Shown here: positions 11,598 through 18,489 of the stretch, piece by piece
How positions within the stretch are numbered: the first letter of the stretch is position 1
Layout: each line of letters starts with the position of its first letter
Made by a program: the position numbers and the translations under genes
The notes under the pieces: model-generated
What the model was told of the DNA's origin: nothing
Databases searched by the model: none
What the model saw: only the letters and a program-made list of their open reading frames with translations
IMG/VR virus record: IMGVR_UViG_3300046724_000162
Span: 1-32,982 of that record
Source of the DNA: a virus
Length of the DNA: 32,982 bases
Direction: 5' to 3' (one strand)

Positions 11598-12317
11598 CTA
11601 TCCGCCGCTCATGTAGCGCTCGAGGCGCCCCTCACGGCGTGCCTGCGCGATCTGCGGAGCGGTCATGGTCTTGAGGTCGGCGGCGCCGAGCTGAGCGGGC
11701 TTAGAGCCGCCCGTGCGCGCGCCGCCGTCGCCGGAGCCCTGGAAACCTGTCGCCTTCGCGGCGAGGTAGGGCTTGGACTTGATCAGTTCCGAGATCGCCT
11801 CGGCAATCGCACCGGAGTCAACCGTGCCGTCGTCGCCGACCTCGAACTCCGACATGTCGAGGTAGCGGGCCGCGTCCGACGGGTCGGCCAGCTTGCCCGC
11901 GGCAGCCGCCTTGACCTCGGCCGCGAGGATGCGCGCGTTCGCCTTCGCGTTCGCCGCGGCCTCGGCATCGCGCCGGGCCTTCTCCGCGTCCTGCTGCGCC
12001 TGGTCCTGCTGCGCGCCGGCCGCCGCCTTCGCCTTCAGGTCGGCTAGCTCGGCCTCAGCCGCCTTGAGCTTCCTCGCGGCCTCACGCCGCGCCTTGCGCT
12101 CTTCAGCCAGGGCCTTCTTGCCTGCGTCGCCCAGGCCGTCGCCGTCCCCGGCATCGTCCTGGCCGTCACCGCCCGCGTCGCCGTCCCCGGTGTCGCCGCC
12201 CGCGTCGTCGTCGTCCCCTGGGGCGGCGCCGAGCACGGGCCACACGATCCGGCCGGACGGCATCACGCCGAGCGCCGGGAGGCCGGTAAACGGGTGAACG
12301 GGCATTTCCTCAGCCAT
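11598..12317 (-). CDS. Scaffolding protein (239 aa)
   Basis: The protein has an acidic low-complexity part (residues about 33-66, Asp/Gly-rich) followed by a long charged coiled-coil stretch (about 68-135, Ala/Glu/Lys/Arg-rich with KKALAEERKARREAARKL) and a basic C-terminus (QIAQARREGRLERYMSGG). This is typical of phage scaffold proteins, which act inside the prohead and are lost. ATG at 12317 is preferred because GAAAGGAAC is at good distance; the ORF extends 9 codons more upstream. It lies directly before the major capsid gene. Confidence 0.85.
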   Translation of the reverse strand: MAEEMPVHPFTGLPALGVMPSGRIVWPVLGAAPGDDDDAGGDTGDGDAGGDGQDDAGDGDGLGDAGKKALAEERKARREAARKLKAAEAELADLKAKAAAGAQQDQAQQDAEKARRDAEAAANAKANARILAAEVKAAAAGKLADPSDAARYLDMSEFEVGDDGTVDSGAIAEAISELIKSKPYLAAKATGFQGSGDGGARTGGSKPAQLGAADLKTMTAPQIAQARREGRLERYMSGG

Positions 12318-12351
12318 CGCAGCTGTTCCTTTCGCCGTCCGCATCGCGCGG

Positions 12352-14864: not shown

Positions 14865-16484
14865 TCACCTCCCTGACGCCGTAAGGATCATCGTCGACTT
14901 CTTCGGCCTGAACTCCTTGGCCGCCGTGGCGTCGCCGGCCGCCTGGTGCGCGAGCACCGAGCACATCGCGAGGTCGATCTTCTGCGCGTCGCTCGGCTTC
15001 GCCAGCACGTACCGCTTCGCGGGCCGGGCTGACTTCCGCGCGTTGCCGACGTGCAGCGCCGTCAGCCGGCAGCCGTCGTGCGCGAACGTCGTCTCCGCCT
15101 TCGTCACGTCGGTCAGCAGCCGCTCGCAGGCCGGGTGCACCCGGGTAATCCGCGAGGTGTACCAGCGGATCACCTTCTTGTCGCCGAGCTGCTCGGCCCA
15201 CCCGTCAATCTCGGTCTCCCAGTCGGGCGGGTCCGCGTACATCCGGGCCACCGCGTACCGGTCGAACATCTCCCGGACCGCGGCGTCCACCTCGAGGCGC
15301 GGCACCTGGCCGCTGAACTCCGCCGGGTCCCAGATGCACGGCAGCCCGTCGGGCCCGTAGACAGGCGTGAACTGGTAGCCGTCGGCCGTCTCGGCGCGGA
15401 TGGCCGTCCAGTCGTTCACGTCCGAGCCGTCGAAGCCGAGCACCACCGGCGTGCCGTCCGGGACGTCCCTTGGGCTTTCCCGCGCTTCCCAGTGCGCCGG
15501 GTCCATCCACGCGCCCAGCCCGGCGACGATCCGGTTGCCGAAGAACCGCTCAGCCTGCGACGGGTCCCGCTCGAGCAGCTCGGCCGCCTCCGCCTCGATC
15601 GCGTCGAGGTCGACGTGCGAGCTGCCCGCGTACACGTGCCGGTGAATCCGCTGCCGCTCCCGCTTGTCGCGGTAACTCAGGTGCTTCGGCGGCAGCCGGT
15701 GAAACCTGTAGATGTCCGGCCGCGACGACGTCGACGTCGACTGCGCGACGCTGTCTTCCGACGGGTCCCACGCGTTCGTGGTCTCGATGCTCCGGCCGCC
15801 CATGCCCGCCAGGCCGCGGCGCTGCGTCTCAGCGACCCTCCGCAGCCCGTTCGCCTTCGTGTAGGTGCCCGACTCATCCTGCAGCACGAACGTGACCGGG
15901 TTACCGAGCCGCGACAGCGCGTTCGCCGTCACCACGTCGATCCGGCCGTTACCGCCGACCCGGGTGAACTCCTCGCCGACCCGCATCAGCGCCGACAGCG
16001 GCCCGTTCTTGATCATCATCTGCAGCGGCCGGTACACGTTGTCGGTCTGGTCCTCGCTAGTGGCCGTCAGCTGGATCAGCGGCGTCGGCCACGGCGTCCC
16101 CATCGGCTCACCAGGCTCGTACTCGTAGATCCACCCGCAGTCACAGCCGTACGCCGAGCACTGGTACAGCTCGCCGCCCTCAGCCCACCCTGCGAACACC
16201 GCCGGGCCGGACGCCTCGACGCAGATGATCGTCGCCGACCACGGGCCCTTGCCCGTCTTCTGCGGCGCCACCACCTGCGAGCGCCTGTACCTGAACGCCG
16301 GCGCCAGCTGCCCGCGCCGGGCGGCCCGCTTGACCGTGTAGTGAGCGGCCGTGCACTCGAGCTGCCAGTCGTACATGACGAACGGGTCGCCCTGGTGCCA
16401 GCCGTCAGGGATCACGCAGTGCGCGGGAATCCAGTCCAGCGCTACATACAGCGGCGTCCCGTCGTCAGCCGCTCCGCTGGCCAC
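14865..16484 (-). CDS. terL: Terminase large subunit (539 aa)
   Basis: ATPase and nuclease that packages DNA into the prohead. A Walker A motif is at residues 75-80 (QKTGKG), Walker B at about 197-204 (VTFVLQDE) and the TTNAWDP motif III at about 235-241. Nuclease acidic residues are expected at D352 (LGFDGSD) and D504 (QKIDLAMC). The protein has an unusual Cys cluster at about 109-117 (CSAYGCDCG) that interrupts the ATPase domain. Start is GTG, overlapping the end of the small-subunit gene by 20 bases. The neighbouring small terminase, portal and HNH genes support a complete packaging block. Confidence 0.93.
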   Translation of the reverse strand: MASGAADDGTPLYVALDWIPAHCVIPDGWHQGDPFVMYDWQLECTAAHYTVKRAARRGQLAPAFRYRRSQVVAPQKTGKGPWSATIICVEASGPAVFAGWAEGGELYQCSAYGCDCGWIYEYEPGEPMGTPWPTPLIQLTATSEDQTDNVYRPLQMMIKNGPLSALMRVGEEFTRVGGNGRIDVVTANALSRLGNPVTFVLQDESGTYTKANGLRRVAETQRRGLAGMGGRSIETTNAWDPSEDSVAQSTSTSSRPDIYRFHRLPPKHLSYRDKRERQRIHRHVYAGSSHVDLDAIEAEAAELLERDPSQAERFFGNRIVAGLGAWMDPAHWEARESPRDVPDGTPVVLGFDGSDVNDWTAIRAETADGYQFTPVYGPDGLPCIWDPAEFSGQVPRLEVDAAVREMFDRYAVARMYADPPDWETEIDGWAEQLGDKKVIRWYTSRITRVHPACERLLTDVTKAETTFAHDGCRLTALHVGNARKSARPAKRYVLAKPSDAQKIDLAMCSVLAHQAAGDATAAKEFRPKKSTMILTASGR

Positions 16485-16941
16485 CGGCGATGGCCCTCAG
16501 CCGCGTCTTCGCCGACTCCGGCGCCGCAGCCGATGCCCTCGGCACCCTGGCGGCCGCCTCGGCCGGCGCCGCGAGGTGCCAGCGGTTACGCAGCATCCCG
16601 GACGGCAGCAGCCCGAGCGACTCGGCGTGCTGGCGCAGCTCCATCAGCATCGCCGCCGACGCGCCGCCGTCCTCGCAGCGGGCCATCTGCCGCACGTGCA
16701 GCGCCACTTCCCAGTACAGCCCCAGCTCAGCCCACGCGACAGCCTGCGGGAGCTTCCACATCGCCTTCCAGAGGTCCGCCTCGCGCACGTCCTGGACCGG
16801 CAGCGGCCACCTCGGCACGCGGCCCCTGCGTCCTGTCGCCGGGAGCTCGCGCCAGCCGCCGGGATCGGCGCGCCGCTGCGACCGCAGCGACATCGGGTCG
16901 GCCGGAGGGCCTGAGGTTGCGCGCGCACCGCCGCTCGGCAT
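16465..16941 (-). CDS. terS: Terminase small subunit (P27-like, 158 aa)
   Basis: DNA-recognition subunit of the terminase. It has a Pro/Gly/Arg-rich N-terminus (MPSGGARATSGPPADP), then RWPLPVQDVREADLWKAMW and PQAVAWAELGLYWEVALHV, which fit P27-family small terminases, and a helical C-terminus. ATG at 16941 has a GGATGGAG site well placed; another ATG lies 4 codons upstream (16953) but its ribosome-binding site is too close. It directly precedes terL. The intergenic gap upstream may hold the site it recognises. Confidence 0.85.
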   Translation of the reverse strand: MPSGGARATSGPPADPMSLRSQRRADPGGWRELPATGRRGRVPRWPLPVQDVREADLWKAMWKLPQAVAWAELGLYWEVALHVRQMARCEDGGASAAMLMELRQHAESLGLLPSGMLRNRWHLAAPAEAAARVPRASAAAPESAKTRLRAIAGGQRSG

Positions 16942-16953
16942 GGGTTTCTCCAT

Positions 16954-17108
16954 CCTGCTCGCATCGCGCGAGCCGAATCAGGTCACATCGCGTGACCGAA
17001 ATGCACAAGGTGCGACTTTTGAACCTGTCGGACCGCGCGAAGCCCTCACTGGCGGTCTCCGCCGCGGCGCCGTTCAGGGTCACCCCCCTGCGGGTGCCAA
17101 ATGGACGC
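16954..17108. other. Non-coding dyad-rich gap before terS; candidate cos region
   Basis: A 155-base gap in an otherwise tightly packed region. It contains GCTCG/CGAGC (16957-16961 and 16969-16973), the perfect inverted repeat GGTCAC/GTGACC with 5-base loop (16981-16986 and 16992-16997), a 10-base imperfect direct repeat CATCGCGYGA (16962-16971 and 16986-16995), and CACCC/GGGTG flanking a C-rich centre (17081-17085 and 17092-17096). Cos sites of HNH-terminase siphoviruses commonly lie next to the terminase genes, so this is a candidate for the cleavage site and terminase-binding repeats. A promoter is also possible. No terminus data support it. Confidence 0.4.
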
Positions 17109-17672
17109 CTAGTAGACGCCGTACCTGGTGCGCATCGTGCTGCGCCTGGCGCTCTGCACCGCGGCACCCTGGCTGCCTGCGTGGTAGGCGGCGAAGTCCC
17201 TGGAGCTGAGCACCGGGTTGCTGTCGAGGTAGGACTTGAGCTCGTCGCTCGCGTACTTGCCGCGGGTGGCGGCGTTCGCGGTGAGCAGGCTGCGTCCGTC
17301 GATGCCCTTGGCGCGGCCTGCCTTGTTGACGAGGTTGCCGCGGGTTGTGTTCTCGGCGGCGACGAAGTGTCCCTCGAGGTGGTCGCGGTGCGCTGACTGG
17401 GCTGCCTGCCGGCGGCTGGTCGTAGCGGCTGCGCGGCGGCTGGCGTTCTCGCGGCGCTGCATCTCGGCGAGGGTGGCCTTGACGGCGTGCCCGCTGTTGC
17501 CCACGTCGGGACGGTCGTAGTGCTCGAGCAGCTGCCGCTCGTTCATCTTGCGGAGCGGCTTCTTCAGTTCCTTGCGGGCGGTTGTCTTGCTGCCGTGGGC
17601 TTTGAGGATGGCGGCGGCCATGTTGGTGGGCACGTAGTCGTGGCGCCAGGTGCCGCCGTTCTTGCCTGCCAT
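17109..17672 (-). CDS. Conserved basic hypothetical protein (187 aa)
   Basis: A highly basic, helical protein in the packaging block between the HNH gene and the terminase genes. It starts MAGKNGGTWRHDYVPTNMAA, with an Arg/Ala-rich middle (RRENASRRAAATTSRRQAA) and a C-terminus with KSYLDSNPVLSSRDF and RSTMRTRYGVY. ATG at 17672 is chosen for its GAGAGG ribosome-binding site; an upstream in-frame start has a poor one. The charge suggests nucleic-acid contact, but no family is recognised. Its conserved-looking C-terminus makes it likely to be a real protein. Its stop is just before the candidate cos gap. Confidence 0.72.
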   Translation of the reverse strand: MAGKNGGTWRHDYVPTNMAAAILKAHGSKTTARKELKKPLRKMNERQLLEHYDRPDVGNSGHAVKATLAEMQRRENASRRAAATTSRRQAAQSAHRDHLEGHFVAAENTTRGNLVNKAGRAKGIDGRSLLTANAATRGKYASDELKSYLDSNPVLSSRDFAAYHAGSQGAAVQSARRSTMRTRYGVY

Positions 17673-17674
17673 GG

Positions 17675-18040
17675 CTACCTCTCGTTCCATCCGCCTGGCT
17701 GGTTCTCAGCCGTGGCCTTGCTGTGGCACCCGCGGCAGAGGCCGCGGCCGTGCTCCGGGTCGTCGGCATCCATGCCGCGCTGCTCGAGTTCTCGCCGTGA
17801 CAGCGGCCAGTGGTCGGCGACCGTGGCGAGCACCCACAGGCCTTCGTCACGGCAGATAACGCAGCAGATGTCACGCTCGAGCACCGCGGCGCGGAACGTG
17901 GTGCGGTGGCGCTTGCCGTAGCCGCGTGCCGCTGACGAGCCGCGCTGCCGTTCAGCCGACCGTGAGCAGCCTGCGCACCGTCCGGACGGCACCAGCGCGC
18001 CGCAGCCTGCCGAGCAGGTAGTGAGCGCGCGCCGCGGCAC
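17675..18040 (-). CDS. HNH endonuclease (121 aa)
   Basis: Small phage HNH nuclease. Such enzymes next to terminase genes are known to assist terminase cleavage in cos-type siphoviruses. Motifs: C60-x2-C63, then the catalytic D76-H77 (VADHWP), then C102-x2-C105-H106 (LCRGCHSK). The Asn expected in the middle of the finger is a His-type position (EHGRGLC), a known variant among actinophages. An extra N-terminal cysteine pair (SAGCG, RCAGC) may bind a second zinc. GTG at 18040 is chosen, 2 bases past the upstream stop; further upstream the frame is Arg-rich and not protein-like. Confidence 0.85.
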   Translation of the reverse strand: MPRRALTTCSAGCGALVPSGRCAGCSRSAERQRGSSAARGYGKRHRTTFRAAVLERDICCVICRDEGLWVLATVADHWPLSRRELEQRGMDADDPEHGRGLCRGCHSKATAENQPGGWNER

Positions 18041-18042
18041 GG

Positions 18043-18489
18043 TCAGATGAAGGCGGGGCCGCCGGATTTGGCGGGAATGCCCGCGGTGGGGCTGGCCTTT
18101 ACGGTGGTGGTCTTCTTCGGTGCGGCCTTGGGTGCTGCCTTGACGGTAGCCGTGGTCTTCCCGGCGGCTGGCGTCTTCGGCTTGGCCGTGGCCATGGCTG
18201 CGAGGTGCTGCTGGTGGGCGACGTGGGCGACGTGCCATTCGTGCTGCTGCGCGGCGGTGAGTTTCTTGCCGGCCTTGATCTTGGCGGCGATGGCGGTCAG
18301 CTGCTTCTGGGTCGGCTGCCCGCTCTTTGCCGTCTTCGCCGTCTTGGCCGTGGTCTTGGTCTTGGCGGGCGGCGTCTTGGCGGGCGGCGTCTTGGCGGGT
18401 GCGCTCTTACTGCCGCTGCCGGGGGTGATGAACTGGCCGCCGCCTGCAGCGCCGCCGGGCGCGCGGGGATGGAGATCAGCTTCGAACAC
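18043..18489 (-). CDS. Lys/Ala/Pro-rich histone-H1-like basic protein (148 aa)
   Basis: A low-complexity basic protein. The N-terminus is MFEADLHPRAPGGAAGGGQF, then PPAKT repeats and an AKTAKTAK run (residues about 30-55), a short helical middle (KQLTAIAAKIKAGKKLTAAQ) and a long Lys/Ala/Thr/Pro tail like an H1 C-terminal domain. Part of the tail comes from an exact 15-bp tandem repeat (CTTGGCGGGCGGCGT at 18361 and 18376). It may bind DNA during packaging or late infection, an inference from composition. It lies at the head of the late operon, just upstream of the HNH gene. Confidence 0.65.
   Translation of the reverse strand: MFEADLHPRAPGGAAGGGQFITPGSGSKSAPAKTPPAKTPPAKTKTTAKTAKTAKSGQPTQKQLTAIAAKIKAGKKLTAAQQHEWHVAHVAHQQHLAAMATAKPKTPAAGKTTATVKAAPKAAPKKTTTVKASPTAGIPAKSGGPAFI

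Follow-up and report, generated by a model that had tools for sequence, protein, structure and literature searches.

A predicted actinobacteriophage-type cos site and a tandem-hairpin leader upstream of the small terminase gene

The non-coding gap upstream of the small terminase gene (terS) in the window, by which we mean the whole 32,982-base virus record analyzed here, is probably composite (probability about 0.8): its HNH-side half would be a cos site and its terS-side half the RNA leader of terS. Judged by its sequence, an actinobacteriophage-type cos site almost certainly lies in this gap, and as a cos site it is of a known kind and is here another member of that kind. The leader carries a pair of hairpins that is conserved among relatives in form and in position, whose stems covary and which is confined to one strand.

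The gap and its neighboring genes

The late genes lie on the minus strand in the order HNH, 193-aa ORF, gap, terS, terL, portal, head protease, scaffold, capsid and tail genes (Table 1). The original prediction took the gap as 155 non-coding nt, and by mechanical ORF calls it does span 16954-17108. In the small terminases of Dubu and phiSASD1 the start is one in-frame ATG further on (MPSGGAR; codon at 16941, preceded by the Shine-Dalgarno GGAG), and by homology the gap is therefore probably 16942-17108, or 167 nt. The phiSASD1 terS gene (L002:98-565; NC_014229 gp21, annotated 188-565) itself seems to be annotated short, and homology favors a start at 98. Names in the databases also differ from function for this family: phrog_226 is labelled a tail family in PHROGs, and its members sit just before terL and match annotated small terminases, and the small terminases NC_070828 (Dubu gp1), NC_070832 (Auxilium gp1) and NC_070836 (Seahorse gp1) are labelled "minor tail protein" in RefSeq.

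The gap had also been described as flanked by HNH and terminase genes. This holds for terS and terL on one side; on the other, the immediate neighbor is the 193-aa ORF, and HNH is next beyond it. This ORF (17109-17690) seems to be mosaic, with an N-terminus that by eye resembles the ORF at the same place in L024, the closest relative of the window, and a C-terminus like the end of head protease/morphogenesis profiles. By eye, L006 has no such ORF between HNH and cos. BLASTP found no likeness between the 193-aa ORF and Dubu gp47, nor between the window HNH and Dubu gp46; the counterpart of the window HNH, again judged by eye, is the unannotated terminal HNH ORF of Dubu. An unannotated HNH ORF lies directly before cos in both phiSASD1 (L002:36664-37015) and Dubu (L003:39051-39418), and the annotated HNH genes of these phages are further upstream.

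The direct and inverted repeats reported in the gap exist, and their number is weak evidence. Compared with 500 dinucleotide shuffles, there are 7 perfect inverted repeats with arms of at least 5 (2.3 expected, P 0.032) and 2 with arms of at least 6 (0.63 expected, P 0.15). With counts this near chance, the number of dyads was dropped as an argument for cos; the repeats are convincing through their conservation in relatives alone.

Table 1. Features of the gap, the neighboring genes and the second hairpin pair in the window
Feature	Coordinates	Strand	Basis or remark
Predicted 9-nt 3' cohesive end CGCCAGTGA	17046..17054	-	PWM match; cut of the terminase-sense strand at 17046/17045
Presumed small-terminase binding site (+15..+29), holding GGTTCAAAA at 17017-17025 (+21..+29)	17017..17031	-	constant distance of 20 nt from the cut, in isolates as in loci
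Left G/C box GGGGGGTGACCC, overlapping the C-rich dyad 17081-17096	17077..17088	-	G-run/C-run box conserved in loci
HNH endonuclease gene, start codon uncertain, expected packaging partner	17675..18238	-	PHROG HNH family, E 4e-15
193-aa ORF between HNH and cos	17109..17690	-	C-terminal part matches phrog_12049 / phrog_1752
terS leader hairpin 1, GGTCAC[GCGAT]GTGACC	16981..16997	-	covarying stem, constant loop type
terS leader hairpin 2, GCTCGC[GCGAT]GCGAGC, just before the Shine-Dalgarno	16957..16973	-	covarying stem, constant loop type
terS, start corrected to 16941	16465..16941	-	phrog_226; Pfam Terminase_7, E 6e-4, under the curated cut-off; tblastn to annotated terminase small subunits
terL	14865..16484	-	phrog_19179, E 2e-154
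Pre-scaffold hairpin 1, CCGC[GCGAT]GCGG, right after the protease stop codon	12339..12351	-	
Pre-scaffold hairpin 2, CAGCT[GCGAT]GGCTG, with the scaffold start codon (12317) inside	12311..12325	-	
Head scaffolding protein gene, start corrected to 12317	11598..12317	-	phrog_4708, E 3e-56; Pfam Phage_scaffold, E 7e-12

The predicted cos site

The closest isolated phages by TerL are the Streptomyces phages phiSASD1, Kromp and Dubu (58-60% identity). Each of their records runs from shortly upstream of terS to shortly past an HNH gene (unannotated in phiSASD1 and Dubu), and the joined ends therefore correspond to the gap in the window. A PWM made from the genome junctions of nine isolated phages, with the window excluded from the build, scores 22.2 at a single place in the window; no other place on either strand exceeds -3.8, and 20 random 33-kb sequences reach 7.4 at most. 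The nine junctions, of which that of Gambol is the most divergent, have in common the core (A)CCGC(C/G)GG(G/T)GA, followed in most by GG and then, at a fixed 20 nt on, by GGTTCAAAA or a related form. The core of the window is off this consensus (CGCCAGTGA vs CGCCGGGGA). The phiSASD1 record begins before the nine letters CGCGGGGGA and the Dubu record begins after them. In the AGM1 record the last 9 bp are annotated as cos-site, at the alignment position of the predicted overhang. On this homology the exact cut is very likely to be at 17046/17045. The original prediction had put the overhang in the C-rich dyad at 17081-17096; this dyad is present, but it is not the overhang, since the cut maps about 40 nt closer to terS and the dyad itself aligns with the left G/C box. 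Two of the records bear separate remark: that of Nyceirae (L092, L093; NC_031004) describes a circularly permuted genome, although its first base, like that of the Dogfish record, falls at the conserved cos cut after CGCGGGGGA, and in Brevibacterium phage AGM1 (L282:33286-34077) four 198-bp tandem repeats are annotated inside the large HNH endonuclease gene gp50.

Metagenomic and host-genome relatives extend the pattern. Upstream of terL the PWM score is above 0 in 55 of 80 viral loci found through TerL, vs 3 of 80 equal stretches of the other strand (54/80 once L020 is dropped, whose match, 36 nt from terL, is false by position); in the 25 loci where it is not positive, a contig cut at that place explains only some. 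Of the 32 viral contigs with an end in the 1300 nt upstream of terL, 13 have the predicted cut as their exact starting point. The same signal is seen when contig ends are chosen without the motif: 23 of them (22 distinct) lie 450-800 nt upstream of terL and have G and G at +1 and +2 in 17/22 and 16/22, and T, T, C and A at +23..+26 in 15, 15, 16 and 15 of the 22. Contigs start after, not before, the nine overhang letters, which would be compatible with trimming of a 3' overhang during library preparation. Contigs that end on the HNH side, which bear on overhang polarity, were also sought; this gave four loci, two of them on already known contigs. L024 (40,981 bases, TerL 80%) starts at GGGCT, the predicted cut, and its far end runs through CGCGGGTGA into the same GGGCT. 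Fixed ends at the conserved HNH-terS site are thus seen in relatives, as record junctions and contig ends, and in this phage are placed by homology only.

The GGTTCAAAA box at +21..+29 of the cut recurs in relatives, with G at 21 and A at 26-29, and a G-run/C-run box is found within -75..-12 (median start -43) in 99/128 loci vs 1/128 random segments. A protein-free scan for core plus box located the pattern in at least 119 viral and 57 genome loci, where the conservation of both follows from how the loci were picked. In 129 of the 153 pattern loci with at least 1200 nt of downstream sequence, among the matches listed, TerL is present there, and of the 102 distinct loci with 1000 nt or more upstream, a homology search, also among the matches listed, places an HNH match before cos in 101, in 77 of them no more than 400 nt away; this count supersedes that from an HNH regular expression, which gave just 24/125.

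The claim of cos-type packaging with a cos site in the gap thus has strong support from homology to the genome ends of isolates, from the ends of contigs and from the order HNH-cos-terS. A gap with no cos, in which an ordinary late promoter/operator region carries dyads by chance, agrees with dyad counts that alone are near chance, but this idea can practically be dismissed in view of the cos core, the box spacing, the HNH/TerL context and the contig ends.

phiSASD1, Dubu, AGM1 and Kromp are like the window in the core, in the 20 nt to a GGTTCAAAA-type box and in having HNH just before cos, and differ from it in the overhang, which in the window is CGCCAGTGA; Dubu and phiSASD1 differ further in being without the hairpin pair before terS. 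A likeness also exists to HK97, whose gene order we take to be HNH-cos-terS-terL; in the window HNH is likewise near the terminase genes, though an extra ORF intervenes between it and cos, and the TerS family (phrog_226/Terminase_7) is different. According to extracts from an HK97 study (PMC11331095), the small terminase of that phage binds +15..+29 of the cos cut and needs a C:G pair at 21 and an A:T-rich run, it is thought to stall the motor so that TerL, aided by the HNH protein gp74, cuts, and the overhang is a 10-nt 3' end. Within what these extracts cover, the window is similar in the +15..+29 spacing of the presumed TerS site and in the make-up of that site, where a G:C pair at 21 precedes a run rich in A (spacing and make-up were compared, not letters) and in a predicted short 3' overhang, and is different in that the overhang would be 9 nt rather than 10 nt. 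By analogy, the small terminase would hold the GGTTCAAAA box and pause the motor, and TerL and HNH would make two nicks, leaving the 9-nt 3' overhang CGCCAGTGA; we infer that cleavage and TerS binding occur at the gap.

Tandem hairpins before terS and the scaffold gene

In relatives the stems of the leader hairpins vary and the loop type, G-N-R-A-N, is kept. Leaders (+28..+140 of the cut) were searched for C-GNRAN-G with no pairing required, in a set from which L020 was removed (false PWM match) and to which L011, L031 and L070 were added (contigs that by eye begin at the cut, with a PWM score just under 0); removal of redundancy took out 46 of 202 loci, and the set omits pattern loci that have no TerL match (24 of the 153 with enough downstream sequence, among the matches listed). 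There are 239 matches in 121 of the 156 distinct loci. Watson-Crick pairing at stem positions 1-4 from the closing pair is 0.80/0.75/0.71/0.61 in the leaders, compared with 0.30/0.27/0.33/0.28 for the same motif elsewhere (5,296 matches) and 0.15/0.11/0.19/0.31 for its antisense (62 matches). For 104 distinct hairpins, selected solely on their loop, the covariation score is 0.632; shuffling gives 0.199 (0/500 reach the observed value), and sliding the partners gives no more than 0.190. G-U mismatches number 70 vs 21 A-C inside the hairpins and 512 vs 521 outside (Fisher P 3e-7, uncorrected for relatedness; the loci are related, so that the P values are optimistic). A DNA structure should have G-T about as often as A-C, and the excess of G-U only inside hairpins therefore points to RNA of the terS sense strand.

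By a strict count, one or more good hairpins are present in 97/156 loci, and in 72 there are exactly two. In these two-hairpin loci the loops are identical in 52/72 (0.19 expected), whereas the four 5'-arm bases are the same in only 9/72, and the loop-to-loop spacing of 14-30 nt falls into classes of 14-15 and mostly 23-28 nt. In a smaller set of measured loci, the last hairpin ends -2..19 nt from the terS start in 35/36. A clear pair before terS is absent in Dubu, phiSASD1, Auxilium, Persistence, Dogfish and Gambol.

The pair has a second site. On the sense strand of the loci there are 45 tandem hairpins in leaders and 5 elsewhere in 1.2 Mb, and none on the other strand; four of these five lie 4.6-5.2 kb downstream, directly behind the head protease gene and, in loci that extend far enough, ahead of scaffold. 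Loci that reach +4000..+6300 have a pair there in 26/77 cases, as against 0/77 antisense and 1/77 in the +1400..+3700 stretch, and the ORF next after the pre-scaffold pair is scaffold-like in 22/25 tested. Outside the leader, hairpins with the same loop are enriched (37/284 vs 61/1,424 with other loops), and 27 of the 37 are at +4500..+5250. A set of 16 whole or part phage sequences (~525 kb) was also scanned, some of them already known to carry the leader pair; 20 records had been chosen by isolate-like names, and stretches of 10 of these were taken together with G001. All 16 tandem pairs in the set of 16 sequences directly precede terS (11) or scaffold (5), with 0 antisense; three of the sequences have no pair, and phiSASD1 has one before scaffold only.

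This recurrence before scaffold, together with the strand and mismatch pattern, argues that the element belongs to mRNA and is not a packaging signal. Of the dyads that had been taken as cos features, two are better read as hairpins in the RNA leader of terS, since the pair has its second site 4.7 kb off, ahead of the scaffold gene. It is very probable that the tandem hairpins are a real RNA element.

Possible roles of the hairpin pair

In the terS leader the two tandem hairpins adjoin the ribosome-binding site, and since the same element precedes the scaffold gene, it is most likely a shared translational operator or a similar post-transcriptional control. Translational control of terS and scaffold in particular may be regarded as an even chance. 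In RNA-phage coat operators the hairpin encloses the start codon, and lambda boxB has a GNRA-like pentaloop; the window hairpins differ from both in forming a tandem pair and in having a loop sequence that varies between genomes. The GCAAC loops hold no start codon, so that AUG-in-loop is not a general mechanism. Loop type is barely predicted by the similarity of TerS (AUC 0.55) or TerL (AUC 0.59), which leaves TerS unsupported as the loop reader.

The hairpins might instead be a late-operon antitermination site, boxB/nut-like or ANTAR-like, an unlikely reading: their GNRA-type pentaloops do resemble lambda boxB, but a mid-operon second copy on the scaffold start codon suits translation better. 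Actinobacterial ANTAR-target RNAs, as portrayed in extracts from PMC8164766, are dual stem-loops with linkers of 2-25 nt, variable stems and conserved loops, often at the RBS or start codon, and on that portrayal our element is like them in its two tandem stem-loops, short linker, variable stems and conserved loops, and in its place at an RBS or start codon (PMC8164766). It differs in that the loops given there are hexanucleotides with A1 and G4, and those here are G-N-R-A-N pentaloops; the pair lacks the six-base A1/G4 form and is therefore not an ANTAR RNA by the definition in these extracts (PMC8164766).

RNase processing or stabilization of mRNA at the 5' ends of head genes, through elements read by a host factor, is a doubtful explanation as well. 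It draws on the intercistronic site right after the protease stop codon and on 17 host-genome loci with hairpins, where the loop tracks host group, though in part only (in the two Micromonospora and the two Actinoplanes loci, for instance, one hairpin or both have GCGAT); against it, loop identity is shared inside a genome and differs from genome to genome, even among those of Cellulomonas (two with GCAAG, one with GCGAT).

Very improbable is a role as DNA-level packaging elements, a cosB-like array bound by TerS, even though the hairpins lie 50-100 nt from the cut and the two spacing classes (14-15 and mostly 23-28 nt) differ by roughly one helical turn. The stems covary as one self-pairing strand in which G-U is tolerated and A-C is not, the distance of the hairpins is tighter and shorter to the terS start (the 35/36 loci above) than to the cut (s.d. 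14), several cos phages are without hairpins, and the cosB-repeat idea is rejected above all because the pair also precedes scaffold, 4.7 kb off.

Rfam at gathering score gave 0 matches in the window, phiSASD1 and Dubu and only two tRNAs in 16 further loci, and at E up to 10 gave only chance-level rows on 16800-17250. A title and abstract search of the open-access PMC literature, whose terms may miss one, found no description of the pair, and within that literature the tandem hairpin element appears to be undescribed. The balance is about equal for the fuller proposal that tandem G-N-R-A-N pentaloop hairpins are an undescribed cis-regulatory RNA family of actinobacteriophages, which would tie terS and scaffold dosage together via one loop-specific factor.

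The cos site gives a base-exact prediction for a large group of mostly uncultured actinobacterial phages, which helps to orient and complete their genomes. The hairpins point to a compact RNA element that singles out two head genes, in phages with little sequence shared there; if translational control is correct, they would be a direct handle on the balance of scaffold vs terminase production in tailed phages.
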